Part shown: piece after piece, positions 1,435-20,362 of the stretch | Position numbering within the stretch: the first letter of the stretch is position 1 | Layout of the letters: each line of letters begins with the position of its first letter | Assembly: GCA_038888615.1 (NCBI GenBank) | Contig: JAWAID010000002.1 | Coordinates: forward strand, 275,594-339,593 | Direction of reading: 5' to 3' | Length of the DNA: 64,000 nt | Origin: Candidatus Korarchaeum sp. | GTDB lineage: Archaea; Korarchaeota; Korarchaeia; Korarchaeales; Korarchaeaceae | Made by a program: the position numbers and the translations under genes | The notes under the pieces: generated by a model | What the model was told of the DNA's origin: nothing | The model's input: only the letters and a program-made list of their open reading frames with translations | Databases searched by the model: none

Positions 1435-3150
1435 ATGCCAAGGGTTATCGAGCTCGAGGACGTTACCTTCACGTATCCTGACGGGACAGTCGCCCTCAAA
1501 AACCTCTCTTTTTCCCTGGATAAAGGGGAAGTAGTCGCTGTTGTGGGAGAGAACGGGGCCGGCAAGACGACCCTCTGCTACCTCCTCTCGGGCGTTATAC
1601 CACACATATACGGGGGTACCATAAGGGGGAGGGTCAGCGTAGCGGGCGTCCAGCCTAAGGACATGCCCATGAGGGAGCTCTCCAAGAAGGTGTCCATAGT
1701 GCTGCAGGATCCCGACTCCCAGATATTCTCGCCCACGGTGTTCATGGAAGTCGCTTTCGGCCCCAGCAACCTTGGTCTGAGTAAAGAGGAGATATTAGAG
1801 AGCGTTAAGTGGGCATTAGAGGTCACGGGACTCAGTGGTCTTGAGAACAGATCCCCTGATGAGCTCTCGGGAGGACAAAAGCAGAGACTCGTGCTGGCCT
1901 CGGTCCTGGCGATGAGGTCCGAGGTGCTGGTCCTGGATGAACCGACATCGCAACTCGACCCCGTGGGGGTGAGGGAGGTCATGGGGACCCTGAGGGAGCT
2001 TAAGGAGAGAGGGGCGACGATGGTGATAACCACTCATCAGACCGAGGAGATAGCTGAGATAGCTGACAAGGTGATAGTGCTGAAGGATGGGAGGATGCTA
2101 GCCGTAGGAAGTCCCAAGGAGATATTCTCGAACGTGGAGCTGATGGAACACGCTGGCGTCAAGGCTCCGGATGTAGCCATTCTCATGGAGAGGCTGAAGA
2201 GGGATAAGAGACTTAGACTGGAGGGGAGGATTCCGATAAATGAATTTGAGGCTGGGGAAATTTTCAGAAAGCTAATATCGAGTGGAAAGCTCAGGATGTC
2301 TGGAAGGATCATTCCGGAGCCTAGAGGAGAGGGGAAAGCGGTGATAGAGGTGAGGGATCTTCATTACGAGTACCCCGGTGGCGTGAAGGCCCTCGATGGC
2401 ATAGACCTCGATGTCAACGAGGGTGACTTCCTCGGGGTAATAGGGATGAACGGTTCAGGTAAGTCCACTCTAGTCAAGACGATGATAGGCTTACTGAAGC
2501 CGCAGAGAGGGAGCGTGCTCTTCAGGGGGGAAAACGTCTCGAAGTTCACCGTGGGTGAGCTAGCGAGGAGGATAGGTTTGATACTCCAGAACCCGGATTA
2601 CCAGCTCTTCACAATCTCGGCATTGGAGGAGGTGATGTTCGGCTTGAGGAACATAGGGGTTAAAGGGGAGGAAGCGAGGAAGAGGGCCCTTGAGATACTT
2701 GAACTCGTAGGATTGAAGGAGAAGGCAGACTACTTCCCATTTAAACTTAGCTTTGGGGAAAGAAGGCTTTTAGCCGCTGCAGCAACTTTAGCACTCGACC
2801 CCGAGGTCGTGATACTGGATGAACCGACGACGGCTCAGGACTACAGGGGGAGGTACTTACTGGCTGATCTGGCGAGGGAAATGCACGCTAGGGGGAAGAC
2901 GATAATAATGATAACGCACGATATGGACCTCATAGCTAGGTACGCTAACAGGGTGATAGTGATGGCGAACGGTAAGATAATACTGGATAACGACCCCCAC
3001 ATCGTCTTCAACAGGGTGGAGGAGCTTAAGGAAGCTGGAGTGATGCCCCCCCAGATAACTAGGTTGGCTATCTCCCTGAGGGAGGAAGGAGCCCCTAGCG
3101 AGGTGATAAGGGTTGAGGAGTTCCTAAACTCGATTGAGGTGATAGGATGA
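1435..3150 (+). CDS. ECF transporter energizing ATPase, two fused ABC domains (EcfA1-EcfA2 type)
   Basis: 571 residues holding two ABC ATPase domains in one chain. Domain 1 has Walker A GENGAGKTT (K44), the signature LSGGQKQR and Walker B VLVLDEPTSQLD. Domain 2 begins near residue 300 and has Walker A GMNGSGKST (about 337-345) and Walker B VVILDEPTT. The second signature is altered to LSFGERR. Both Q-loops read as in CbiO/EcfA proteins (LQDPDSQIF, LQNPDYQLF). It would couple ATP hydrolysis to the T component encoded next, whose start overlaps this stop (ATGA at 3147-3150). The changed second signature suggests asymmetric ATP sites, which is an inference. Confidence 0.92.
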   Translation: MPRVIELEDVTFTYPDGTVALKNLSFSLDKGEVVAVVGENGAGKTTLCYLLSGVIPHIYGGTIRGRVSVAGVQPKDMPMRELSKKVSIVLQDPDSQIFSPTVFMEVAFGPSNLGLSKEEILESVKWALEVTGLSGLENRSPDELSGGQKQRLVLASVLAMRSEVLVLDEPTSQLDPVGVREVMGTLRELKERGATMVITTHQTEEIAEIADKVIVLKDGRMLAVGSPKEIFSNVELMEHAGVKAPDVAILMERLKRDKRLRLEGRIPINEFEAGEIFRKLISSGKLRMSGRIIPEPRGEGKAVIEVRDLHYEYPGGVKALDGIDLDVNEGDFLGVIGMNGSGKSTLVKTMIGLLKPQRGSVLFRGENVSKFTVGELARRIGLILQNPDYQLFTISALEEVMFGLRNIGVKGEEARKRALEILELVGLKEKADYFPFKLSFGERRLLAAAATLALDPEVVILDEPTTAQDYRGRYLLADLAREMHARGKTIIMITHDMDLIARYANRVIVMANGKIILDNDPHIVFNRVEELKEAGVMPPQITRLAISLREEGAPSEVIRVEEFLNSIEVIG

Positions 3151-4004
3151 CCTTCAAGTACGTTGAGAAGGACACCTTGATGCATAGGCTTCACCCGATA
3201 ACTAAAGCCCTACTGCTGCTAGCAGCTCTCCTCCTGGCACTGCTCTTCACCTATGACCACTCCATCCTACCCCTCCTCGTAGTGCTAGCGTTCGAGCTAG
3301 CGCTTTGGAGGATCGCTGGGATAGAGTTCTGGAGGGTAGCTCTGGTGATAAAGGTGCTGATGAGCATCTTCCTGTTCTTCGTAGTGGTTCAGGGGTTCCT
3401 CTACAGGGGGGGAGTGACCCCTCTGTTCGCGATAGGGCACTTCAAACTCTGGGAGAAGGATATAGGCGAGTTCACGCTCGAGGGCTTGCTATACGGAATC
3501 TTCATCTCAGTGAAGATACTGGTTGTCGTCATAGCAGCCATAATCTTCGTCATGACGACCTCGATAACCAAGATGTCAGCTTTAGCTCACAGCCTAAGGC
3601 TCCCTTACAGCTTCTCCTTCACGCTCCTAGCTGGCTTGAGGTTCGCTCCACTCATATTCAAGTCCTTCTCAGATATAAAGGACGCTCAGAAGCTGAGGGC
3701 ATTCGACATAGACAGGATGAACATAATGGTGAGGGCCTTCAAGGCCTACGTGCCGATCCTAACGCCCCTCATACTCAACTTACTGAGGAGGGGAATGGAG
3801 CTCCAGATATCGATAGAATCGAGGGGTTACGGAGCCACTAAGAACCCGACTCAGCTCGAGGAACTATCTATGAGGGTCTCAGATTACTCGATGCTCTTGA
3901 TGATAGTAGCCGTATTCTCGCTCTCGCTTTACCTGAACTACACGCTAGCGCCCAGCGTTTACTCTAGCTTCCTTGAGTTCCTCAGGGGGATATTGAGGGG
4001 TTGA
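3147..4004 (+). CDS. ecfT: ECF transporter transmembrane T component
   Basis: 285 residues with N-terminal and C-terminal membrane helices and a cytoplasmic coupling region. The family's coupling motif is visible as KLRAFD (within SDIKDAQKLRAFDIDR), followed by a second short motif ESRGYGATK, equivalent to the A-R-G motifs of EcfT that dock on the two ATPases. The start overlaps the ATPase stop by four bases, so translation is coupled. With its neighbours it completes an ECF importer of unknown substrate. Confidence 0.9.
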   Translation: MTFKYVEKDTLMHRLHPITKALLLLAALLLALLFTYDHSILPLLVVLAFELALWRIAGIEFWRVALVIKVLMSIFLFFVVVQGFLYRGGVTPLFAIGHFKLWEKDIGEFTLEGLLYGIFISVKILVVVIAAIIFVMTTSITKMSALAHSLRLPYSFSFTLLAGLRFAPLIFKSFSDIKDAQKLRAFDIDRMNIMVRAFKAYVPILTPLILNLLRRGMELQISIESRGYGATKNPTQLEELSMRVSDYSMLLMIVAVFSLSLYLNYTLAPSVYSSFLEFLRGILRG

Positions 4005-4005
4005 G

Positions 4006-5091
4006 TTGGTTCTAGACGTCACGGATATATTCAGGATATGCTCGGAGAAGCAGAGAGAAGGGAGAAAGGTGATAAACGCTCACATAGGGACTCCGAGTCA
4101 TCCACCCCCTGCCAGCGTCAAGGAACTGCTAGCCAAGGTGGGGGAGGTCGGCCACTCTTACCTACCGTTCGAGGGTATGTCGGAGACGAGGGAGAGGATC
4201 TCGAGGTTCGCTAGGAGGTTCTTGAGTAGGGACCTAGAACCTGAGAGGATATTCGTAACTAACGGTGGGGCTCAAGCTTTAACTTCCGTGCTGATGGTAC
4301 TCAGGAGGAGGAAGATACTATTACCAGCGCCCGGTTTCACCCAGTACTTCGATAACGCTAGGATGATGGGGCTCGACTTCAGGACCTACGATCCCACTTC
4401 AGAGGACATAGTGAGCGAGGTGCTGGGTAGACTCGGGGATGCGGGTGTCGTCCTGATAAACTACCCTAACAACCCAACCGGTTACGTTCAGGGCAACGAT
4501 TCGATGGAGGGACTTTGGGAGGAGCTCAGGAGGAGGGGAGTAGTGCTCATAAACGATGCCGCTTACTCCCAGATATACTTCGAGAGCAAGCCGAGGTTGG
4601 TGGGCGATGTGATAATAGATACCTTCAGCAAGACCCTCGCCCTACCCGGATTGAGGCTCGGCTACGTCTACTGGGGGATAGGGGAGGAGAGGGGCATATT
4701 CGATGCTGTGTACGTAACATCGGCCGGGGTCTCGGAGGTATCCCAACTGCTCCTCAACATGCTGCTAGATGCCCTCTCCGAGGACTACCTCGAGCGAGCG
4801 AGGTCCCATTACAGGAGGAAGAGGGACGCCTTGATCGGGTTAATGAGGGAGTTCGGGTTCTCCTTCCCCGAGCCCAAGGGGGCCTTCTACGTATTCGCTA
4901 CGCATCCAAAACTCAAGGACTCGGGGGAGCTCGCCGAGAGGCTCCTCAGGAGGGAGCCCGTGGTGGGGATAGTCCCCGGAAGCGTCTTCATGGGGGACGC
5001 TAGGTACTTCAGGGTATGCTACAGCCTCTTGGAGGAGGGGGAAGCTGAGGAAATGGTGCGCTCGATCTTAGATGAACTCGGGGCTAGATGA
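4006..5091 (+). CDS. PLP-dependent class I/II aminotransferase
   Basis: 361 residues of fold type I. The Schiff-base lysine is K209 in DTFSKTLALPGLRLGY. Upstream are INYPNNPTG (cofactor ring and substrate contacts) and LINDAAYSQIYFE (the Asp pairing with the pyridine nitrogen). The C-terminal RYFRVCYS supplies the substrate-carboxylate arginine. The start is TTG at 4006, one base after the EcfT stop, with GAGGGG upstream. It is cotranscribed with the ECF transporter, so its substrate may relate to the transported compound. Sequence alone does not give the amino donor. Its 3' end overlaps the convergent NUDIX gene by eight bases. Confidence 0.88.
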   Translation: MVLDVTDIFRICSEKQREGRKVINAHIGTPSHPPPASVKELLAKVGEVGHSYLPFEGMSETRERISRFARRFLSRDLEPERIFVTNGGAQALTSVLMVLRRRKILLPAPGFTQYFDNARMMGLDFRTYDPTSEDIVSEVLGRLGDAGVVLINYPNNPTGYVQGNDSMEGLWEELRRRGVVLINDAAYSQIYFESKPRLVGDVIIDTFSKTLALPGLRLGYVYWGIGEERGIFDAVYVTSAGVSEVSQLLLNMLLDALSEDYLERARSHYRRKRDALIGLMREFGFSFPEPKGAFYVFATHPKLKDSGELAERLLRREPVVGIVPGSVFMGDARYFRVCYSLLEEGEAEEMVRSILDELGAR

Positions 5092-5539
5092 TCTGCCTCA
5101 CTGAGAGGTAACTCAGCCCCTCCCTCAGCACCCCCGCGAGCCTCTTCGTGGTCGAGGTGACGTCCCCCCTGGAGAGCACCTCATCCAAGGGGAACCAGCT
5201 CACATCGATGGCGTCGCCCCCCGGCATCTCCTCCCCAGTCAAGGAACCCTCATCGAACAGCACATCGACTATGATGTAGTGATACCTGATGAGATCACCT
5301 TCCCTTACGATAACCTGACTCAGAGCTACCACACCCAGTGGTTCTGCGTTTAAATTCGTCTCCTCGAGCAACTCCCTCTTCGCAGCATCAAGCAAGCTCT
5401 CTCCGGCTTCAACCACGCCCCCGGGGATGGACCACTTTCCCTGACCTGGAGGGAACCCCCTCCTAACGAGCAGTAGCCTCCCTTCCTTGAGCAGCACGGC
5501 TCCGACGCTCGCGATAGCGTGACTCGGGAACTCCCGCAT
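5084..5539 (-). CDS. NUDIX hydrolase
   Basis: 151 residues, the usual size of a single NUDIX domain. The NUDIX box is complete: GGVVEAGESLLDAAKREL followed by LEETNL, giving the GX5EX7REUXEEXGU pattern apart from the final Gly, which is Asn here. The N-terminal strands read HAIASVGAVLLKEGRLLLVRR, as in ADP-ribose or MutT-like pyrophosphatases. It would hydrolyse a nucleoside diphosphate linked to another group using Mg2+. Substrate is not predictable. It is convergent with the aminotransferase gene. Confidence 0.88.
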   Translation of the reverse strand: MREFPSHAIASVGAVLLKEGRLLLVRRGFPPGQGKWSIPGGVVEAGESLLDAAKRELLEETNLNAEPLGVVALSQVIVREGDLIRYHYIIVDVLFDEGSLTGEEMPGGDAIDVSWFPLDEVLSRGDVTSTTKRLAGVLREGLSYLSVRQII

Positions 5540-5569
5540 AAGCCCACGTGAGCTCCGGAGGATAAAACG

Positions 5570-6079
5570 CTACCCCTCCCTAATGTACGTAGGTGCCCTC
5601 TCGGGGGAGACACCCCTCTTCACCTTATGGTAGTACTCGTAAGTCATCACATCATCATCGCTCAACAGCTCGGCATCTACTAGCTCGCCTATGAAGAGCG
5701 TGTGCGTCCCTACATCCAGACTAGATGTCACTTCAGCCTCTAAGTAAGCTACAGATTCCTCTAGGACTATCGGAACTCCTGTTTTCCCTACTTTATATAT
5801 GATTCCCTCGAACTTATCGAAGTTTCTCCCACTGATGAACCCAAATCTTCCTATGAGTGTCATAGGAGCTTCCTTCTTGAGAATAGAGACTGAGAACGCT
5901 CTAGATGAGAGTATGCATTCGTGCGTGAAGTTCCCCTTATTGATGCACACGGCTACCTTCGGCGGTTCCGATGTCACCTGAAACACCGCATTAGCTACCT
6001 GACCGTTCATCTTATCCCCCAACTTAGAGGAGACTATGTAGACACCGTAAGAGAGCTTCCTAAGGGCCCTGGCGTTCAT
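5570..6079 (-). CDS. flavin reductase-like FMN-binding protein (flavoredoxin type)
   Basis: 169 residues matching the flavin reductase domain found in flavoredoxins and HpaC-like proteins: an early YGVYIVSSKLGDKMNGQVAN segment, VAVCINKGNFTHECI, then FSVSILKKEAPMTLIGRFGF. These contact FMN in the family. It would transfer electrons between NAD(P)H, flavin and an acceptor. A TTTTTTAATT box at about 6094-6103 lies just before the ATG, so the transcript may be leaderless. It lies 30 bases upstream of the NUDIX gene on the same strand and may be transcribed with it. Confidence 0.85.
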   Translation of the reverse strand: MNARALRKLSYGVYIVSSKLGDKMNGQVANAVFQVTSEPPKVAVCINKGNFTHECILSSRAFSVSILKKEAPMTLIGRFGFISGRNFDKFEGIIYKVGKTGVPIVLEESVAYLEAEVTSSLDVGTHTLFIGELVDAELLSDDDVMTYEYYHKVKRGVSPERAPTYIREG

Positions 6080-6115
6080 AAAGTTACTGCAGAATTAAAA
6101 AATAAAAAGCTGACG

Positions 6116-6622
6116 CTAGTAGAAGGAAATCTTCCTCACGTTCCTGCACTTCGATAAAGCTAGCAACTTGGATAGGCTTTTAGGGAAATAAACTTCCTCA
6201 CAATTTCTGATGACTGCCACATACTTCTCGAGCGTCTTTTCATCCACGTCCTGCGATAAGGTGAGCTTCCTAACGTCAGTGATCAGAACTCTCCTGCCAA
6301 ACTTCTCGAAGTCCTCCTTGGATAGCTCTATCTCCTCAACACCCGATACGGGTACCGGTGTCAAGTTCGATACGCCCTCGCTTATGGACTTCCCGGCGAC
6401 CCTCACGCCCTCCACCAGAGGACCTATGCCGGTCAGTAAACCACTCCTCACGTCGAGGAACAACTTCATCGCCTCATTGATGGCCTCTCCTATGCTTATC
6501 CCCAGCCTCCTAGATAGCTCGGCCACGCTGTTGTAGAGTTCGGGGTTGAGGCCCCTTATGGTCACGTCCTTCGGTGCTAGAACCACCTCCTCACCCCTTC
6601 TTACTTCACTCACCTCCGTCAT
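6116..6622 (-). CDS. ribbon-helix-helix DNA-binding protein with a long C-terminal extension
   Basis: The N-terminal part (VTIRGLNPELYNSV, then LSRRLGISIGEAINEAMKLF) matches the beta strand and two helices of a ribbon-helix-helix fold, as in Arc/CopG-type repressors. The remaining roughly 100 residues are unrecognised and contain VLITDVRKLTLSQD. I choose the ATG at 6622 because a CTTATATATC box at 6654-6663 predicts transcription starting near 6635. A longer frame begins at 6676 and would overlap the lyase gene. It likely regulates local genes or forms an antitoxin-like dimer, but no toxin gene is adjacent. Confidence 0.7.
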   Translation of the reverse strand: MTEVSEVRRGEEVVLAPKDVTIRGLNPELYNSVAELSRRLGISIGEAINEAMKLFLDVRSGLLTGIGPLVEGVRVAGKSISEGVSNLTPVPVSGVEEIELSKEDFEKFGRRVLITDVRKLTLSQDVDEKTLEKYVAVIRNCEEVYFPKSLSKLLALSKCRNVRKISFY

Positions 6623-6653
6623 ACATGTCACACCAGTAATACATGAAGTACTT

Positions 6654-6663
6654 GATATATAAG
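6654..6663 (-). promoter_or_regulatory. TATA box of the ribbon-helix-helix gene
   Basis: Read on the minus strand the bases are CTTATATATC, a good archaeal TATA box. It lies across the 3' end of the upstream lyase frame and about 32 bases before the ATG at 6622. This argues that the regulator has its own promoter and decides the start choice. Confidence 0.55.
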
Positions 6664-6668
6664 CATTA

Positions 6669-7568
6669 CTACTCATGCAGCACTCCGAGTTCCCTCAGGA
6701 TAACTGCTACCCTATCAGCTACTTCCCTTGACTCCGGAGTGAGGGGAGGCCTGACATAAGGCTTAACTGGGGTTCCTAGAACGTGAAGAGCTGTCTTAAC
6801 TGCAGTGGGATAGGAGGTAGCTATATCATATATTTCAGAGAGCTTCAACAGCCTTCCGTTCTCCTTAATGGCCTCAACCAGGTTTCCCTGGACCCAAGCG
6901 TCGTAAACTGCTCTATGTATCTCAGGCGCCACGTTAGCTAGAGCGGTGATACCGCCATCTCCTCCCATCATCAGAGTGAATAGCAAGAGGTAATCCATAC
7001 CCGTAAGCACTGAGAAATCCTTTCTGATGGATTTCACACTATTTATCAATCTCTTGAGGTAGGAGACGCTATCTAGGGTTACCTTCGCTCCGACAACGTT
7101 ACTGAACTCCTGAGCGAGCTCGGAGTGGAGCTCGATGGGCACGTTTATACCGGTAGTCGAGGGTATGTTGTAAATTATTATCGGGAGATCCAGCCTCTCG
7201 GCGATCCTAGCGAAGTGAAACCTCAGCCTTTCATGACCTATCTTGAAGAAGAATGGCGGGGTGACGATGACACCATCAACCCCCATGTCCTTGAACCTCA
7301 AGCCCAGCTCTATGGCCCTATCCGTGGAGTTATCGCTGATGCCCGGAAGCACCCAAATCCTTCCCCCGATCTCCTCGAGGATCACCTCCACCAGCTTCAC
7401 AGACTCCTCTCGATCTAGATGAACGAATTCCCCCGTGGTCGAGTTTGGGAACACACCATGGGCCCCTCTCAACTGGTGTTGGGCCAGCCACCTCACTGCC
7501 TCCAGGTCCAGACGGAGGTCCTCCCTGAAGGGGGTCACCAATGGGGTGATGACTCCCCGGAAGGGCAT
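6669..7568 (-). CDS. dihydrodipicolinate synthase / KDG-aldolase family lyase (copy 1)
   Basis: 299 residues of the DapA/N-acetylneuraminate lyase (class I aldolase TIM barrel) family. NSTTGEFVHL matches the substrate-carboxylate loop, YNIPSTTGINVP supplies the catalytic tyrosine and VVGAKVTLDS the Schiff-base lysine. C-terminal MGGDGGITALANVAPE is typical. Archaeal members near this type often cleave 2-keto-3-deoxy sugar acids rather than make dihydrodipicolinate. No lysine-pathway or sugar-acid gene is adjacent to decide. A second family member of identical length is at 23762-24661. Confidence 0.85.
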   Translation of the reverse strand: MPFRGVITPLVTPFREDLRLDLEAVRWLAQHQLRGAHGVFPNSTTGEFVHLDREESVKLVEVILEEIGGRIWVLPGISDNSTDRAIELGLRFKDMGVDGVIVTPPFFFKIGHERLRFHFARIAERLDLPIIIYNIPSTTGINVPIELHSELAQEFSNVVGAKVTLDSVSYLKRLINSVKSIRKDFSVLTGMDYLLLFTLMMGGDGGITALANVAPEIHRAVYDAWVQGNLVEAIKENGRLLKLSEIYDIATSYPTAVKTALHVLGTPVKPYVRPPLTPESREVADRVAVILRELGVLHE

Positions 7569-13655: not shown

Positions 13656-14375
13656 CTATCGGGGCATCTTGTAAAAAGACATCCTTTTTTGAACCCCCAG
13701 TTCATCTAGCCTTTTCTCCCACTCGTCCGATAAGGAGATTATCGAGAAGACGCCCCATAGCTTAGCTCCGGATTCCGCCATGAGGTCCATTATCGCTTCG
13801 AGCGAAGCTAGGTCCTTCACTACATCCCTGACCAGGATCACTTTATCGTTATTTCTCACCCCCTGAGCTGGTAAGTAAAGCTCCACCACTCTCCCCCTAT
13901 CGAGCGAGAGGTAAGAGCTGCTCAAGTAATACTCAGCTGAGAGATCAGCGTGCTCGAGGCAGCTTAAAGCCCTAGCCCCTATCCAGTCGCTGGCTATCAA
14001 CGCCAGTGGGAGGGACGTCTGGGGAGAGGCCAGTAGGAGATCCACCTCCTCATCACCGACGAAGCTGGATATCACGTATCCCATCAGATCCAGGAACTTG
14101 TAGTTATTCATAAACCTCCAGGACTCGATGTAATTGAATCTGTTCACCCTGAGGTTCCTCCTCAATGCTTCCTCGATCAAGTTAAGCTTCTCTATTCTCT
14201 CAATTATCTTCTTGGCCGTCGTCTTCTCAGGTGTGTTCTTCAGGCTTATGTAACGCCATATGACTTGGTAAGGTATCTCTAGCTTAGATTCTAGCTCTTT
14301 TAACGTGAAAAATCCCTTTAATGAGCTCAAAAGCCTAACGGAAACGTAAGGCGATTCAAGCCTCCCGTTCCTCAT
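13656..14375 (-). CDS. HTH-phosphoribosyltransferase-like transcriptional regulator (GfcR-like)
   Basis: 239 residues. The N-terminal 70 residues are a helix-turn-helix domain (FFTLKELESKLEIPYQVIWR). The rest resembles a type I phosphoribosyltransferase fold, as in archaeal GfcR/PurR-like regulators. The segment VILVRDVVKDLASLEAIMDL lies where the PRPP-binding loop (VDDVxxTG) should be, but the second Asp and the Thr-Gly are missing, so catalysis is unlikely and ligand sensing more plausible. It is convergent with the zinc-ribbon gene, five bases apart. Target genes are unknown. Confidence 0.65.
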   Translation of the reverse strand: MRNGRLESPYVSVRLLSSLKGFFTLKELESKLEIPYQVIWRYISLKNTPEKTTAKKIIERIEKLNLIEEALRRNLRVNRFNYIESWRFMNNYKFLDLMGYVISSFVGDEEVDLLLASPQTSLPLALIASDWIGARALSCLEHADLSAEYYLSSSYLSLDRGRVVELYLPAQGVRNNDKVILVRDVVKDLASLEAIMDLMAESGAKLWGVFSIISLSDEWEKRLDELGVQKRMSFYKMPR

Positions 14376-14479: not shown

Positions 14480-14489
14480 ACCTTTATAA
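14480..14489 (+). promoter_or_regulatory. TATA box of the four-gene amino-acid operon
   Basis: CCTTTATAAC sits about 31-40 bases before the ATG at 14520, giving a transcript with almost no leader. It is the only visible promoter for the overlapping genes up to 18432. Confidence 0.55.
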
Positions 14490-14519: not shown

Positions 14520-15488
14520 ATGGAGATGCTTCACCAGACAACCTTGCTTAAGGGCTTCAAGTTCCCCGGAACGTTTTTTAGAGCAAAGAGCATCCAGATA
14601 GGTAAGGGATGGAAAAGGATATACGTTAAGTGGGAAGGGGACAATCCGACAGGAACTCAAAAGGACAGAGCCGCTTTCACGCATGTCAGAAGGGCCATAG
14701 AACAGGGGTATGATACCGTAACCGTGGGGACCTGCGGGAACTTCGGCGTGGCTCTAGCTTACTTCGCTGACCTCCTCGGGTTGAGGGCCGTGATATACGT
14801 CCCCTCAAGTTACATGAACGGTAGGGTGTGGGAGATGAGGAGGTATGGAGCTAAAGTGATCCTCGTTGACGGTAAATATGAGGACGCTGTGGAAAGGAGT
14901 GTAATAGATGCTATGAAGTACGGGTACTACGATTCCAACCCGGGTAGCGTTAACGGAGGCGTTGCCCTAGAGTCGTTCAAGGAGATAGCTTACGAGATAG
15001 TCGATGCGCTGGGCTCGGTCCCCGACCTGGTCTCAGTCCCTCTGGGGAACGGCACGACGCTAGCGGGTATCTACGAGGGTTTCGCTGAGATCGCGAGAGC
15101 CGGGCTCTCCAGGAGGGTCCCAGTCATCCTAGGGGCTACTACGATCTACGGAAACCAGGTAGCTGAGACGCTGAAGAGAGGCTCCGCTGAGCTCATCGCA
15201 CTGAACGAGAGCGATATCAGGGAGACCGAGCACAATGAGCCCCTGGTCTCCATGAGGTCATTCGATGGGGAGTACGCTCTGGAGGCGATAAGGATGAGCA
15301 ACGGTCATGTCTTCGAGTTCGATGATGATGAGCTCTTAACGCTAGCTGAAGAGCTCAAGAAGGAGGGATTGAATCCTCTCCCGGCCTCAGCCTCCTCCCT
15401 CGGAGCTATCGAGAGGTACGTTAGTGAGTTCGGCGGTGAGTTCGAGGTAGCCGTAGCAGTGGTCACTGGGGTGAGGAGGAATGGTTGA
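14520..15488 (+). CDS. threonine synthase-like PLP enzyme (fold type II)
   Basis: 322 residues, shorter than typical threonine synthase (350-480). K48 in NPTGTQKDRAA is the PLP Schiff-base lysine. TVGTCGNFGVALAYFA is the Asn/Gly loop that holds the cofactor ring, and SVPLGNGTTLAGIYEGF the phosphate-binding glycine loop. Family members replace the phosphate of O-phosphohomoserine or perform related beta/gamma chemistry. No homoserine kinase or other threonine gene is nearby. Its 3' end overlaps the DUF1611 gene by eight bases, so the two work together, and the true substrate may not be phosphohomoserine. Confidence 0.8.
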   Translation: MEMLHQTTLLKGFKFPGTFFRAKSIQIGKGWKRIYVKWEGDNPTGTQKDRAAFTHVRRAIEQGYDTVTVGTCGNFGVALAYFADLLGLRAVIYVPSSYMNGRVWEMRRYGAKVILVDGKYEDAVERSVIDAMKYGYYDSNPGSVNGGVALESFKEIAYEIVDALGSVPDLVSVPLGNGTTLAGIYEGFAEIARAGLSRRVPVILGATTIYGNQVAETLKRGSAELIALNESDIRETEHNEPLVSMRSFDGEYALEAIRMSNGHVFEFDDDELLTLAEELKKEGLNPLPASASSLGAIERYVSEFGGEFEVAVAVVTGVRRNG

Positions 15489-16545
15489 CGCTCTGATACT
15501 GGCTGAGGGGAAGTACGATACATCCGATGCGAAGACGGCTCACGGTCTCGTGAGGAAGTCGATGAGGTACAGGATAGTGGGGGTCATAGATAGCAAGTAC
15601 GCTGGGATGGACGCCGGGGAGGTGCTCGACGGGAGAAGGAGGGGGATAAAGATATACGGGAGCCTGGAAGAAGCGTTGAGGGAGAACCCGGGCGTCAGCG
15701 TGCTCATAGTGGGGGTCGCAGTGGCAGGGGGGATGCTCCCGCCGGAGTACAGAGCTACGATAAGGGAGGCCATGGAGAGGGGGTTGAGCGTACTATCGGG
15801 ACTCCACGAGTTCCTCAGCGATGACCCAGAGTTCTCGAGGATCTCTAAGGAGAGGGGTGTGGAGATAATAGATGTGAGGAAGATTTACCAGAACATGAAA
15901 ATATTTTATAGTGGGAGGATAAGGGAGGTAAATTCGTACAGGATAGTCGTACTGGGGACCGACGCTTGCATAGGTAAGAGGACCACGGCTTGGATGCTGG
16001 CCGATGAGCTCAACGGGAGGGGGATAAAGGCGGTGTTCATAGGGACCGGACAGACGGCCTGGATGCAGGGGGCTAAGTACGGTATAGTGCTGGATGCGAT
16101 GATAAACGACTTCATAACTGGTGGACTGGAGCACGAGGTCTGGAGGGCTTACGTTGAGGAGAGGCCTGACGTGATAATAGTGCCGGGGCAGGGGGCCATG
16201 CTTCATCCCGCCTTCCCGGGAAGCTTTGAGATAGTCAATCTCCTATCCCCTCAAGCGGTGATCCTTCAGCACGCTCCCGGGAGGAAGCACTTAGAGGACT
16301 TCCCAGAGTTCCCGATGCCCCCTCTGGAGAAGTACATCCGCTTGGTAGAGCTCATGACTGACAGGAAGCCCGTAGCAATAACGGTGAACACCGAGGGAAT
16401 GAGCCCCGAGGAGGTGGAGATGTACATCGAGGAGGTCGAGAGAAAGTACGGTATAGTGGCTTGCGCACCCCTGATGCACGGTGTGAGCAAGATAGCGGAC
16501 CTCCTAGCTGGGGAGATAAAGGTTGGACTTGAGGTGCTTCGATAG
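15481..16545 (+). CDS. DUF1611 family protein (DgcN-like, P-loop)
   Basis: 354 residues with an N-terminal Rossmann-like half and a C-terminal P-loop half. The phosphate loop is GTDACIGKRTTAW (near residue 160), followed by FIGTGQTAWMQGAKYG and VPGQGAMLHPAFPG, all hallmarks of DUF1611. A bacterial member, DgcN, acts as an N-acetyltransferase for D-glutamate beside the epimerase DgcA. Many relatives lie beside dipeptide epimerases. Here the neighbour is instead a MurL-like PP-loop protein whose TTG start overlaps this gene by 23 bases. A role in modifying an acidic amino acid is an inference. Confidence 0.75.
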   Translation: MVDALILAEGKYDTSDAKTAHGLVRKSMRYRIVGVIDSKYAGMDAGEVLDGRRRGIKIYGSLEEALRENPGVSVLIVGVAVAGGMLPPEYRATIREAMERGLSVLSGLHEFLSDDPEFSRISKERGVEIIDVRKIYQNMKIFYSGRIREVNSYRIVVLGTDACIGKRTTAWMLADELNGRGIKAVFIGTGQTAWMQGAKYGIVLDAMINDFITGGLEHEVWRAYVEERPDVIIVPGQGAMLHPAFPGSFEIVNLLSPQAVILQHAPGRKHLEDFPEFPMPPLEKYIRLVELMTDRKPVAITVNTEGMSPEEVEMYIEEVERKYGIVACAPLMHGVSKIADLLAGEIKVGLEVLR

Positions 16546-17968
16546 GATAAGGGTGCACGACTTAAGGGTCGAGGGAAGGAGGATATCAGCCAGCTACGAG
16601 CTCACAATCGATGGTCTGACTAAGAGGTACGAACTGGTGGAGGTCTATGAGGAGAGGGTGGACGACGTTAAGGGGATAGGGGAGATAGCTGCCCTCACGA
16701 GCGTAATCCCAGCGATAAATTATACACTTTTTACGGATGAAATACTAATAGATTTTCCAATTCACGAGCTAGATCTGAAATTTTTTAAAGATATGAGCGA
16801 GATAGTGGCTAGGGATATCTTCGTCAATAGGATAGTGAGGAGGACGGGGTTGGTCAGGGATGAGTTCGTACCGGATCCTGAGGAGGTTAGGCCCGAGCAC
16901 GCTGAACCCAGGGCCGAGGTGAGCGCTAAGACCGTTGACTCGAGTGAGCTGGAGCTGGAGGGTGGTGAGGGTAGCTGCGGGGTCATGGTTTCCGGAGGTA
17001 AGGATAGCCTGCTCTCCTACATGCTGCTCAAGGAGGCGGGTTGCGAAGTGCACCCCTTCTTCCTAAACGAGAGCGGAAGACACTGGCATGTTTCATTGAA
17101 AGCCTTCAGATACTTCAGGGAGAATGAACCAAGGACGAGGAGGGTTTGGAGTAACATAGACAGGCTCTTCAAGTTCATAGAATCTAACATGAGGATCCTA
17201 GTCAAGGGGTTCGATAGGAAGACTAAGGAGATATATCCGATCAGACTGTTCTGGTTTGAGCACTTCGCCTTCTCCTTCCTGCCGATGATGGTCAGGTATA
17301 AGGTGGGTAACATCGTGTTCGGTAACGAGTACGATGACCCCCTCTCGGTTCCATCCTACTTCAAGGGGATAAAGCATTACAACGCCATATACGATCAATC
17401 TCAGGACTTCGAGAACTACATGACCGATTGGTTCAAGATGAGGGGCCTTAACATAAAGCAGTGGTCCCCGATAAGATCGATATCAGGGCTTCTAGTCCAG
17501 AGGATCCTCTACATGAGGTACCCGAACGTCATGAGGTTACAGATGAGCTGCCACTCCCCCAGGTACATCGGGGGAGAGCTGCTACCGTGCCGCGACTGCA
17601 ACAAGTGCATTGGGATAAAGATTTTCCTCCTAGCTAACGGTATAGACCCCAAAGTCATCGGCTACACCGGGGATCTGGATGACGTAATCGAGCACGTTGA
17701 GAGCGGGAAGTACAGGCTCGATGAGGACGAGCTAGAGCATTGCCTCTACCTGATAAGCGAGAGGCTCAAGGTGAAGCTCCCCAGAGCGATCCCCCATCCC
17801 GAGGTGGAGACGGTGAGGTTCAATGAGGTGACGGCCAAGCCGGATCACATACCCTATCCCGAACTGAGGGCCAGGGTCCTCGACATAGTGGAGCGGTACG
17901 CGAGCGGTTACTCTGTGCTGAGGGATGGAAGATGGGAGAGGGTGAGGAGGGAGGAGCTGGGGATCTAG
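16523..17968 (+). CDS. PP-loop ATP pyrophosphatase family enzyme, MurL-like
   Basis: 481 residues. VMVSGGKDSLLSYMLLKEAG (from about residue 154) is a clear PP-loop that adenylates a carboxylate or similar group. Later features, FFLNESGRHWHV, VFGNEYDDPLS, SQDFENYMTDWF and the cysteine set SCHSP ... PCRDCNKC, follow the general plan of MurL. That enzyme epimerises the terminal L-Glu of UDP-MurNAc-L-Ala-L-Glu using ATP. Archaea lack murein, so a different glutamyl or amino-acid substrate is implied. Start TTG 16523. The N-terminal 150 residues are unfamiliar. The family assignment is moderate, while the PP-loop itself is certain. Confidence 0.65.
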   Translation: MDLRCFDRIRVHDLRVEGRRISASYELTIDGLTKRYELVEVYEERVDDVKGIGEIAALTSVIPAINYTLFTDEILIDFPIHELDLKFFKDMSEIVARDIFVNRIVRRTGLVRDEFVPDPEEVRPEHAEPRAEVSAKTVDSSELELEGGEGSCGVMVSGGKDSLLSYMLLKEAGCEVHPFFLNESGRHWHVSLKAFRYFRENEPRTRRVWSNIDRLFKFIESNMRILVKGFDRKTKEIYPIRLFWFEHFAFSFLPMMVRYKVGNIVFGNEYDDPLSVPSYFKGIKHYNAIYDQSQDFENYMTDWFKMRGLNIKQWSPIRSISGLLVQRILYMRYPNVMRLQMSCHSPRYIGGELLPCRDCNKCIGIKIFLLANGIDPKVIGYTGDLDDVIEHVESGKYRLDEDELEHCLYLISERLKVKLPRAIPHPEVETVRFNEVTAKPDHIPYPELRARVLDIVERYASGYSVLRDGRWERVRREELGI

Positions 17969-18432
17969 TTACCTTCAGGGACCTGGGTCCCGGGGAGATA
18001 GACGAGTACGTGGACTTCGATGCCCCCATGAGCTGGGTCTTCCTCACTGAGGAGGAGAGGGAATCACTGGGTTACGAGGAGTACCTGAGGATCCACAGGG
18101 AGCTCATACGCTCCCTCTACGAATCCAACATCAGGAACAGGATAATAGCCGCTTACATCGGCGGTTCGATCGTGGGTGTGGTCTGGATCGGGATGAGGCT
18201 GGATACGGTGCACTACGTCCCCGTATGCTACGTGTACGACATAGAGGTCAAGGAGGAGTTCAGGGGGAGGGGTTTAGGGAGCAAGCTGCTTCAGATGGCG
18301 GAGGAGACCTGCAGAGAATGGGGATTGGAGGAGTTGATGCTCTCAGTTGAGGCTACCAACTCCGAGGCGCTGAGCTGGTACGAGAGGAGGGGATACGGGG
18401 TGAAGAGACTGCTCCTGAGCAAGAGGGTCTGA
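17932..18432 (+). CDS. GNAT family N-acetyltransferase
   Basis: 166 residues with the acetyl-CoA pyrophosphate loop EEFRGRGLGSKLLQMAEE and the C-terminal SVEATNSEALSWYERRGY seen in RimI/Ard1-like GNATs. It overlaps the MurL-like gene by 37 bases and closes the operon, so it may acetylate the product or an intermediate made by the preceding three enzymes. Protein N-terminal acetylation is the alternative. Its 3' 80 bases are also covered by the convergent secreted-protein gene. Confidence 0.8.
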   Translation: MGEGEEGGAGDLVTFRDLGPGEIDEYVDFDAPMSWVFLTEEERESLGYEEYLRIHRELIRSLYESNIRNRIIAAYIGGSIVGVVWIGMRLDTVHYVPVCYVYDIEVKEEFRGRGLGSKLLQMAEETCREWGLEELMLSVEATNSEALSWYERRGYGVKRLLLSKRV

Positions 18433-20362
18433 TCAGAGCGGCTCTCAGGAGGGACGGAAGGGAGAGGGCTGGAATGATCAATGCTGATACGACAAGCAAG
18501 CTCGTTGAGATCATCACCAGCTCATCCCATAACACGCTAGAACCTAAGATAGTCCCTGAGAATCCAGATATGAAGCAGAGTAAAGCTGATCTAAGGGAAC
18601 TACGTCTCCTCCTTGCTCCGATCAGCAGGCCCACCGGGGTCAGGTAGATCGAACCCAGCATGAGGGATACGAGAACTCCTGATATCGCGATCGAGAGCTC
18701 CTCACCGAGCGGTGAGTGCTTGAAGGAGAGCCTGCCCACCTCAAGGGCCCCTAGGAGAGGGAGCAGAGAGTACCTGACCGTGGAAGCCAGCGCTGGGTTC
18801 TGCCTTATGACCTCAGCGACCCAGGGGCTCCAGAGGTAGTAGAAGGAGTTGAAGGCGTATAAGAACCTCGAGCCAGAGTAGGTGGACATGACGAACCTGT
18901 CCCTGAAGTCCCTCAACCTTTCAAGAGCCTCGCTTCCCTCCCCGAAGGAGGCCGTAGCGATGAAGCACCTCGATCCCCCTTCCTCCACCCTCACCGTGAG
19001 CGTGGTCGAGCGCACTAGCCCGTCACCCCTGCCCTCGATCACCACGGTGTAGACCCCGGGGCCACCTCTGGCCTCCACCATAAGTGAGGTGGTCTCCCCG
19101 GGCTTAAGCCTGTCCCTGGGGTGAAAACCGATGGATAGGTCCTCCGGACCTACCGCGGAGAGCGATACCTCCTTCAGGTTCCCGCTAACGCGCTTCAATG
19201 TGACGGCAACGGAGCCCCTCCCTCCCCTCTGGATCGAGATCGACACCGGGAGCACCTCCAGGGAGAAGTCCTTAGGGGCCTCCTCACCACTCAAGCTTGC
19301 GGTGGTCTCCGACGGCTTCACCTCAGTCCTAACTTGAGTCTCATCCCTCATTGGGATCGTCTGCATCGGTTTGGGGATGATCCGAAGCGTGAACTCCTTT
19401 TCGATCCTCAAGCTGCCTCCTACGACATTTAAGATGATCCTGTAGTCCCCGGGAGGGGTCTCATTTCCCACGGTTATGCCGATCAAGGAGACGAAGTTGG
19501 GCAGGGTGTTGTTGATATCTGCCGAGGCGTAGCTCCCCTCGGGTAGCCCACCGATCAGCAAAACCACGGGTTGCTTGAACTCGCCCTCCCTGTAGACCCT
19601 CAGGGTCACGGTACCACGACCACCTTGCTCCAGCTCGAGGAGGGAGGGCATCAGGGAGACCGAGAGCTTACCCTCCTGAGCGGGAGCTGCGGGACCGCCC
19701 ACGATCAGGAGCGCATTAGCCCTCCTCACCTTCCCTCCACCACTCCCCTCCACGGTCAGGTTGTACTGACCGATCGGCGTGCTGCTGGATGTGATCACCT
19801 TCAGCACTACCTCGCTGCCGACCCCCTCCAGCTTATAGTAGGAGTAGGGCGGTAGCCCGGACACGGATAAGCTTATCCTCTCGGAGAAGCCGCCGTAAGG
19901 AACCACGGAAATGCTGAAGCTCGCTACATCACCGGGAAATACCTTAAGGGAGGATGGGCTCAGTCTCACCTCGAAGTCAGGCTCCAAAGAACCCTCCTTA
20001 ACGACTAGCTTGACTTCCGCTACCTTTCGGTTTTCCCCCAGGGATACGAAGACCTTAACGACGTATTCCCCAGAAGGGGTCTCCTGAGATGTGTATATCT
20101 TAAGCTGAAACTTCCCAGTGGATGCCCTCAGCTCGTAAAACGTGTAAGGTGGTACTCCTGTGACCTCGAACTTGAAGCTACCGCTCACGCTCCCCGAGAT
20201 CGTCAGCGTTATGTCGAAGGACGCTACCTCCCCCGGCAGCACCTCCAGCCTCTCAGGGGACATGCTGACCCAAAAGTCGGATTGAGCTATAGCCCCCCTT
20301 AGCGGGATAATGGCTAAGGTGAGCGATAGAGCTACTAACAGGGACAAGCGGTCCATATGCAA
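18353..20362 (-). CDS. secreted multi-domain surface protein with CFI-box and C-terminal membrane helices
   Basis: 669 residues. A signal peptide (about 1-26, ending near AIAQ) precedes at least four Ig-like beta domains of about 90 residues, each beginning like RLEVLPGEVASFDITL or SLKVFPGDVASFSISV. Then follows the CFI box (CFIATASFGEGSEALERLRD), a motif of archaeal and bacterial surface proteins thought to act in anchoring, and two or three hydrophobic helices. The last roughly 27 residues are antisense to the GNAT gene and low in complexity. A one-base shift would stop the chain before the overlap, so a frameshift or sequencing error at about 18440-18470 is possible. Confidence 0.75.
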   Translation of the reverse strand: MHMDRLSLLVALSLTLAIIPLRGAIAQSDFWVSMSPERLEVLPGEVASFDITLTISGSVSGSFKFEVTGVPPYTFYELRASTGKFQLKIYTSQETPSGEYVVKVFVSLGENRKVAEVKLVVKEGSLEPDFEVRLSPSSLKVFPGDVASFSISVVPYGGFSERISLSVSGLPPYSYYKLEGVGSEVVLKVITSSSTPIGQYNLTVEGSGGGKVRRANALLIVGGPAAPAQEGKLSVSLMPSLLELEQGGRGTVTLRVYREGEFKQPVVLLIGGLPEGSYASADINNTLPNFVSLIGITVGNETPPGDYRIILNVVGGSLRIEKEFTLRIIPKPMQTIPMRDETQVRTEVKPSETTASLSGEEAPKDFSLEVLPVSISIQRGGRGSVAVTLKRVSGNLKEVSLSAVGPEDLSIGFHPRDRLKPGETTSLMVEARGGPGVYTVVIEGRGDGLVRSTTLTVRVEEGGSRCFIATASFGEGSEALERLRDFRDRFVMSTYSGSRFLYAFNSFYYLWSPWVAEVIRQNPALASTVRYSLLPLLGALEVGRLSFKHSPLGEELSIAISGVLVSLMLGSIYLTPVGLLIGARRRRSSLRSALLCFISGFSGTILGSSVLWDELVMISTSLLVVSALIIPALSLPSLLRAALIRPSCSGAVSSPRIPSSRTSSAPRSW

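Follow-up and report, generated by a model that had tools for sequence, protein, structure and literature searches.

A conserved, mostly archaeal gene cassette joins a DUF1611 protein to a MurL-like PP-loop protein that may invert N-acylated amino acids

What might four enzymes do together, when their genes are packed into one another as tightly as at the korarchaeal locus described here? The window, a stretch of 64,000 nucleotides taken from the 1.67 Mb archaeal genome of a Candidatus Korarchaeum sp., carries at 14520-18432 an array of four open reading frames on the forward strand (Table 1). These encode a fold-type II PLP enzyme (PALP), a DUF1611 protein, a PP-loop protein resembling MurL (MURL) and a GNAT acyltransferase. 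The family readings, made in a preliminary description from the letters alone, agreed with the Pfam and NCBIfam results, GNAT scoring 70.1 bits with PF00583 (Acetyltransf_1) for a cut-off of 20.7. The overlaps of 8, 23 and 37 bases that it gave for successive genes proved exact on the ORF coordinates, and the array has no intergenic room for a second promoter. The 37-base overlap of MURL and GNAT was also seen in relatives and is probably real, since at the MURL stop codon the reading frame of GNAT offers no ATG, GTG or TTG. A single promoter driving all four genes is predicted, and the distance of 30 nt from the TATA-box-like element to the ATG would fit a leaderless archaeal transcript. The divergent gene on the other side of this element adjoins the cassette in other korarchaea as well, and lies downstream of it in Thermofilum. 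A gene for a CFI-box-CTERM protein (18353-20362, reverse strand) is convergent with the cassette and overlaps the 3′ end of GNAT by 80 bases.

Table 1. Features of the cassette region, in window coordinates
Feature	Position	Strand	Basis or remark
TTTATAA TATA-box-like promoter element	14483..14489	+	sequence; 30 nt, then first ATG
PALP, fold-type II PLP enzyme	14520..15488	+	PF00291, NCBIfam PRK06381
DUF1611 protein, N and P-loop domains	15481..16545	+	both Pfam domains; DgcN-related
MurL-like PP-loop protein (MURL), TTG start	16523..17968	+	SGGKDS loop, Cys motif, AF2 model
GNAT acyltransferase	17932..18432	+	Acetyltransf_1 match
Divergent HTH and phosphoribosyltransferase-like protein, non-core neighbour	13656..14375	-	candidate regulator

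About 85,000 species genomes were scanned with a profile for relatives of the PP-loop protein; 96 were found, of which 80 loci were kept. Archaeal records came from korarchaea, Thermoproteota, Thermofilum, Thermococcus, Nitrososphaerales, Aciduliprofundum and many Thermoplasmata (Thermoplasma, Ferroplasma, Acidiplasma and Cuniculiplasma among them), and bacterial ones from three NC10, one Caldiserica and one Syntrophobacterales MAG. The proposed pathway, first thought of as archaeal, is thus mostly but not exclusively so. DUF1611 was found immediately upstream of MURL in 73 of the 75 loci with enough sequence, and PALP preceded DUF1611 within the cassette in 55 of 69 readable loci; these counts rest on mechanical ORFs, and MAG loci can be misassembled. 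Because the same order is met again in several archaeal phyla and some bacteria, the arrangement is far beyond chance. Among 394 archaeal genomes, the MURL family was present in 18, a PRK06381-type PALP in 21 and a DUF1611 protein over the cut-off in 65, and all 18 MURL genomes also contained both partners (Fisher co-occurrence with MURL of 2e-28 for PALP and 9e-16 for DUF1611, values which ignore shared descent). Within the genus of the window, PALP, DUF1611 and MURL were all present in 6 genomes and all absent in 10. We conclude that the cassette is a real conserved unit in many archaea and a few bacteria, the survey of the 80 kept loci having shown that the four genes co-occur in other genomes. 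A mirror-tree correlation between PALP, DUF1611 and MURL was uninformative, its r of 0.86-0.90 being no better than that of a housekeeping neighbour, Tsr3.

The composition of the cassette varied. GNAT was part of the cassette in korarchaea, in Thermofilum-type loci, in Thermococcus and in Caldiserica, and was absent from it in Thermoplasmata. PALP is not essential to the core, as it is missing from Aciduliprofundum-type and Caldiserica cassettes; the DUF1611-MURL pair was kept without it at loci L053-L056 and L079. At two other loci (L040 and L068, genomes G398 and G400), the cassette genes missing from the locus were present elsewhere in the genome. In L040 (6864-7805), from a Thermofilaceae MAG, the MURL-GNAT pair was separated from DUF1611-PALP and stood divergent to an isoaspartyl peptidase/asparaginase-like gene. 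Four loci with a relocated PALP (L068, L069, L078 and L083) had a 70-84 aa ORF, weakly PALP-family-like, just upstream of DUF1611, which is perhaps a PALP relic. In L044 (3667-7305), DUF1611 ran into MURL without an intervening stop, as a single open frame of 1212 aa; this is possibly a fusion or else an error of this one MAG. An MFS transporter gene adjoining the cassette in Thermococcus and NC10 was discarded as a component: identity was 28% over 134 residues, and the protein is a generic MFS.

The central question is the nature of MURL. The protein gave no match in Pfam at E 0.1, QueC (PF06508) included, and none in a PDB sequence search. With the NCBIfam MurL model (NF041275) it scored 14.6 bits (E 0.0089), and its NC10 homologue 19 bits, for an equivalog cut-off of 700. 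The relationship to MurL that had been proposed was nevertheless upheld by hhalign, where the MURL profile aligned over 24-372 with MurD2-linked bacterial MurL at an E value of 8e-15. Profile comparison gave 3e-25 with a second archaeal MurL-like subfamily (A6) and 1.2e-7 with QueC, the MurL profile itself matching QueC at 2.4e-5. MURL and MurL are homologous over most of the chain, and share an SGGK-type PP-loop, a GNE motif and an RSC...CGxCxKC motif. Strongly conserved in MURL are SGGKxSL, NExG.HW, Y-P, GxExD, DQ and C343-H...C356-x2-C359-x2-C362, the four cysteines being predicted to form a metal-binding-type motif. For the AF2 model (pLDDT 93.4), the top-ranked PDB folds in Foldseek, all weak, included QatC 9y01 (8e-5), Cap9 9nto and QueC 3bl5 and 2pg3 (QueC 1.8e-3). 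From the MurL and QueC profile values and this weak but consistent ranking, MURL is placed as a MurL relative inside a broader QueC-like PP-loop group. A grouping with QueC, which the preliminary description had set against its own reading, is therefore seen at the level of fold (QatC, Cap9, QueC) but not at the level of profiles. MURL resembles the QueC family by its closest solved folds, its ATP PP-loop and its Cys4 motif; unlike that family, it lacks a PF06508 match, is farther from it by profile than from MurL, has an additional N-terminal domain (about 140 residues) and keeps other gene company.

The A6 subfamily adjoins DUF1611 at locus L148. At L138 (genome G260, 2751-6768) and L029, it stands beside a D-Ala-D-Ala-ligase-type ATP-grasp gene, an assignment based on Pfam for L138 alone; at L138 a PRK06381-type PALP is close by as well. 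The arrangement with ATP-grasp may belong to another pathway that employs this type of enzyme.

The DUF1611 protein had been called DgcN-like. It does have both domains, DUF1611_N and DUF1611_C (107 and 218 bits), but its 177 bits with the DgcN model (NF041892) are well under the equivalog cut-off of 480. Its nearest solved chains are 2g0t, 7xrj and 2obn. In the DgcN-DgcA D-glutamate pathway, a DUF1611 N-acetyltransferase works with an enolase-type N-acetyl-Glu racemase; the two systems share both DUF1611 domains and the GTDxxxGK P-loop, and DgcN has, as MURL would be here, a stereo-inverting partner in the same operon. The cassette differs by the MurL-like nature of the putative inverting enzyme and by the addition of PALP and GNAT. 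We then inspected 11 archaeal DUF1611 loci devoid of a DUF1611-linked MURL. An MR_MLE epimerase occupied neighbouring gene positions in four (L139, L140, L141, L149), three (L143-L145) had as immediate neighbour an Ala_racemase_N protein akin to ornithine racemase, and the remaining four had neither neighbour. As a stereo-inverting enzyme recurs beside DUF1611, MURL would fit an inverting role. No enolase-superfamily racemase was present in the window. Its replacement by the PP-loop protein, as earlier proposed, is supported in that MURL stands where DUF1611 often has an epimerase or racemase; it does not hold for NC10, which carries both. In the three NC10 loci (L060-L062), an enolase-type epimerase follows MURL (by Pfam in L060, by clustering in the other two), and scores 168 with DgcA for a cut-off of 400.

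Two other observations concern the surroundings of DUF1611. A gene for a D-aminoacyl-tRNA deacylase (PF04414, checked on one representative) lies near the cassette in 36 loci of Thermoplasmata. The link is suggestive only, as it concerns one class, the gap is 10-398 bases in the tandem arrangement, with no overlap, and in Thermoplasma the gene is on the other side and strand. Three genomes of one family (G037, G059 and G079, f14) have 3-4 DUF1611 matches each, which suggests other uses of the DUF1611 family. A full-text literature search on DUF1611 returned only unrelated papers, and DUF1611 combined with threonine synthase gave no match.

Our preferred interpretation, for which we would put the chances at just about even, is that the operon changes the configuration of an amino acid at the alpha-carbon while the amino acid is in the form of an N-acyl derivative. 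The DgcN-like DUF1611 protein would acetylate the amino group, and MURL would spend ATP by adenylating the alpha-carboxylate of the resulting N-acyl compound. Adenylation would acidify C-alpha, the centre would invert and the adenylate would be hydrolysed, making the MURL step irreversible. PALP would make or consume the amino acid through an elimination or replacement at the beta or gamma position and GNAT, where present, would carry out a second acyl transfer. By analogy, MURL is the most likely source of the inversion, by carboxylate adenylation, since DUF1611 is found elsewhere in archaea beside enolase-type epimerases or ornithine-racemase-like enzymes. Carboxylate-activated N-acyl amino acids racemise readily, via oxazolone or enolate, so that a DUF1611 acyltransferase and a MurL-like adenylator would make a natural pair. 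ATP-using carboxylate chemistry is expected of MURL by its likeness to MurL; both MurL and the QueC-family enzymes use ATP on a carboxylate (PMC13329287, PMC8788868). Among the points against the proposal, the MurL and DgcN cut-offs are both missed by wide margins, and a racemase of the PLP kind, where it is the partner of DUF1611, would have no need of an N-acyl substrate.

Alternatively, it may be that MURL activates the carboxylate as a ligase or amidase of the QueC/QatC/Cap9 kind, joining an acid to ammonia or an amine without inversion, and that the cassette builds an amidated or peptide-like N-acetylated metabolite from an unusual amino acid supplied by PALP. The best Foldseek matches are indeed of this kind, the Cys4 motif is similar to the zinc motif of QueC (PMC13329287), and the ATP-grasp neighbour of the second-subfamily relative points the same way. 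As the MURL profile is nearer MurL (8e-15) than QueC (1.2e-7), and the partners of DUF1611 elsewhere are epimerases or racemases, we consider this alternative less likely, though it is the likeliest of the rivals. The same fold matches, to defence and queuosine proteins, would also suit a QueC-type system modifying tRNA, protein or nucleobases, or acting against phage. PADLOC gave no match for any of the four genes, DUF1611, PALP and MURL keep each other's company as metabolic enzymes, and the distribution in Thermoplasmata is clade-wide rather than island-like; such a system is very improbable.

PALP bears on a further explanation, in which the cassette serves amino-acid biosynthesis or catabolism driven by PALP itself, through a threonine-synthase-like or cysteate-synthase-like beta/gamma replacement, N-acetylation being protective and MURL an accessory. 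PALP scored 420 bits with NCBIfam PRK06381 ('threonine synthase', cut-off 266), its nearest solved structures are class II threonine synthases (1UIM and 6CGQ, about 25% identity), with likeness in fold and overall sequence, and it accompanies MURL in 18 genomes out of 18. In an alignment of 45 PALP sequences, however, the column equivalent to Arg160 was mostly D/S/A/G and that of Asn154 mostly S/G; in T. thermophilus threonine synthase these are the phosphate-binding residues, and this site is lost in PALP. The family has invariant motifs of its own, CGN[YF]G and E235...N239-E-P-L, and the genome of the window encodes other PALP paralogues, one with a frame of 398 aa, a length usual for threonine synthases. 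On these three grounds the 'threonine synthase' label is probably wrong. The same features, and the persistence of DUF1611-MURL without PALP, make the explanation centred on PALP rather improbable.

Coming back to inversion by MURL, the substrate may be acidic and of D configuration, as the preliminary description had proposed. Many hosts of the cassette are peptide-feeding, and this lifestyle, together with the DgcN precedent, slightly favours salvage, from a D-acidic amino acid to the L form, as the direction. DgcN is part of a route by which D-acidic amino acids are irreversibly racemised (PMC12363236), whereas MurL adenylates the carboxylate in a unidirectional reaction, L to D only (PMC8788868). 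These precedents, D to L for the DgcN route and L to D for MurL, are opposed in direction, which counts against the analogy. Unlike MurL, an ATP-dependent, AMP-forming epimerase acting on a C-terminal Glu, MURL has DUF1611 and not MurD2 as partner, with no MurD-like ORF among its neighbours, and it is commonest in Thermoplasmata. Many Thermoplasmatales have no cell wall, which makes murein an unlikely substrate and a cell-wall role for the cassette unlikely. NC10 has no Asp/Glu racemase (PF01177), which might have meant that its wall receives D-Glu through the cassette; this was rejected because relatives are also without PF01177.

No published description of a cassette combining a MurL-like enzyme with DUF1611 was found. 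According to its description, MurL is the first epimerase to use ATP, and it is known only from peptidoglycan (PMC8788868). As it has been reported to lack known conserved domains (PMC5808125), the kinship of MURL with QueC would hint at the mechanism of MurL itself. If our interpretation is true, a probably wrong 'threonine synthase' label would be corrected in the genomes with the cassette, and archaeal MurL relatives tied to an N-acetyltransferase-type protein would make this chemistry a general one, predating or outside wall synthesis. It is possible, if somewhat less assured than inversion by the operon itself, that ATP-driven MurL-type epimerisation of free N-acyl amino acids is widespread in prokaryotes outside wall synthesis, and that in archaea, many of them wall-less, it serves to salvage or make D-amino acids. 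The cassette would then offer archaea a way of making or consuming D-amino acids that can be put to the test.
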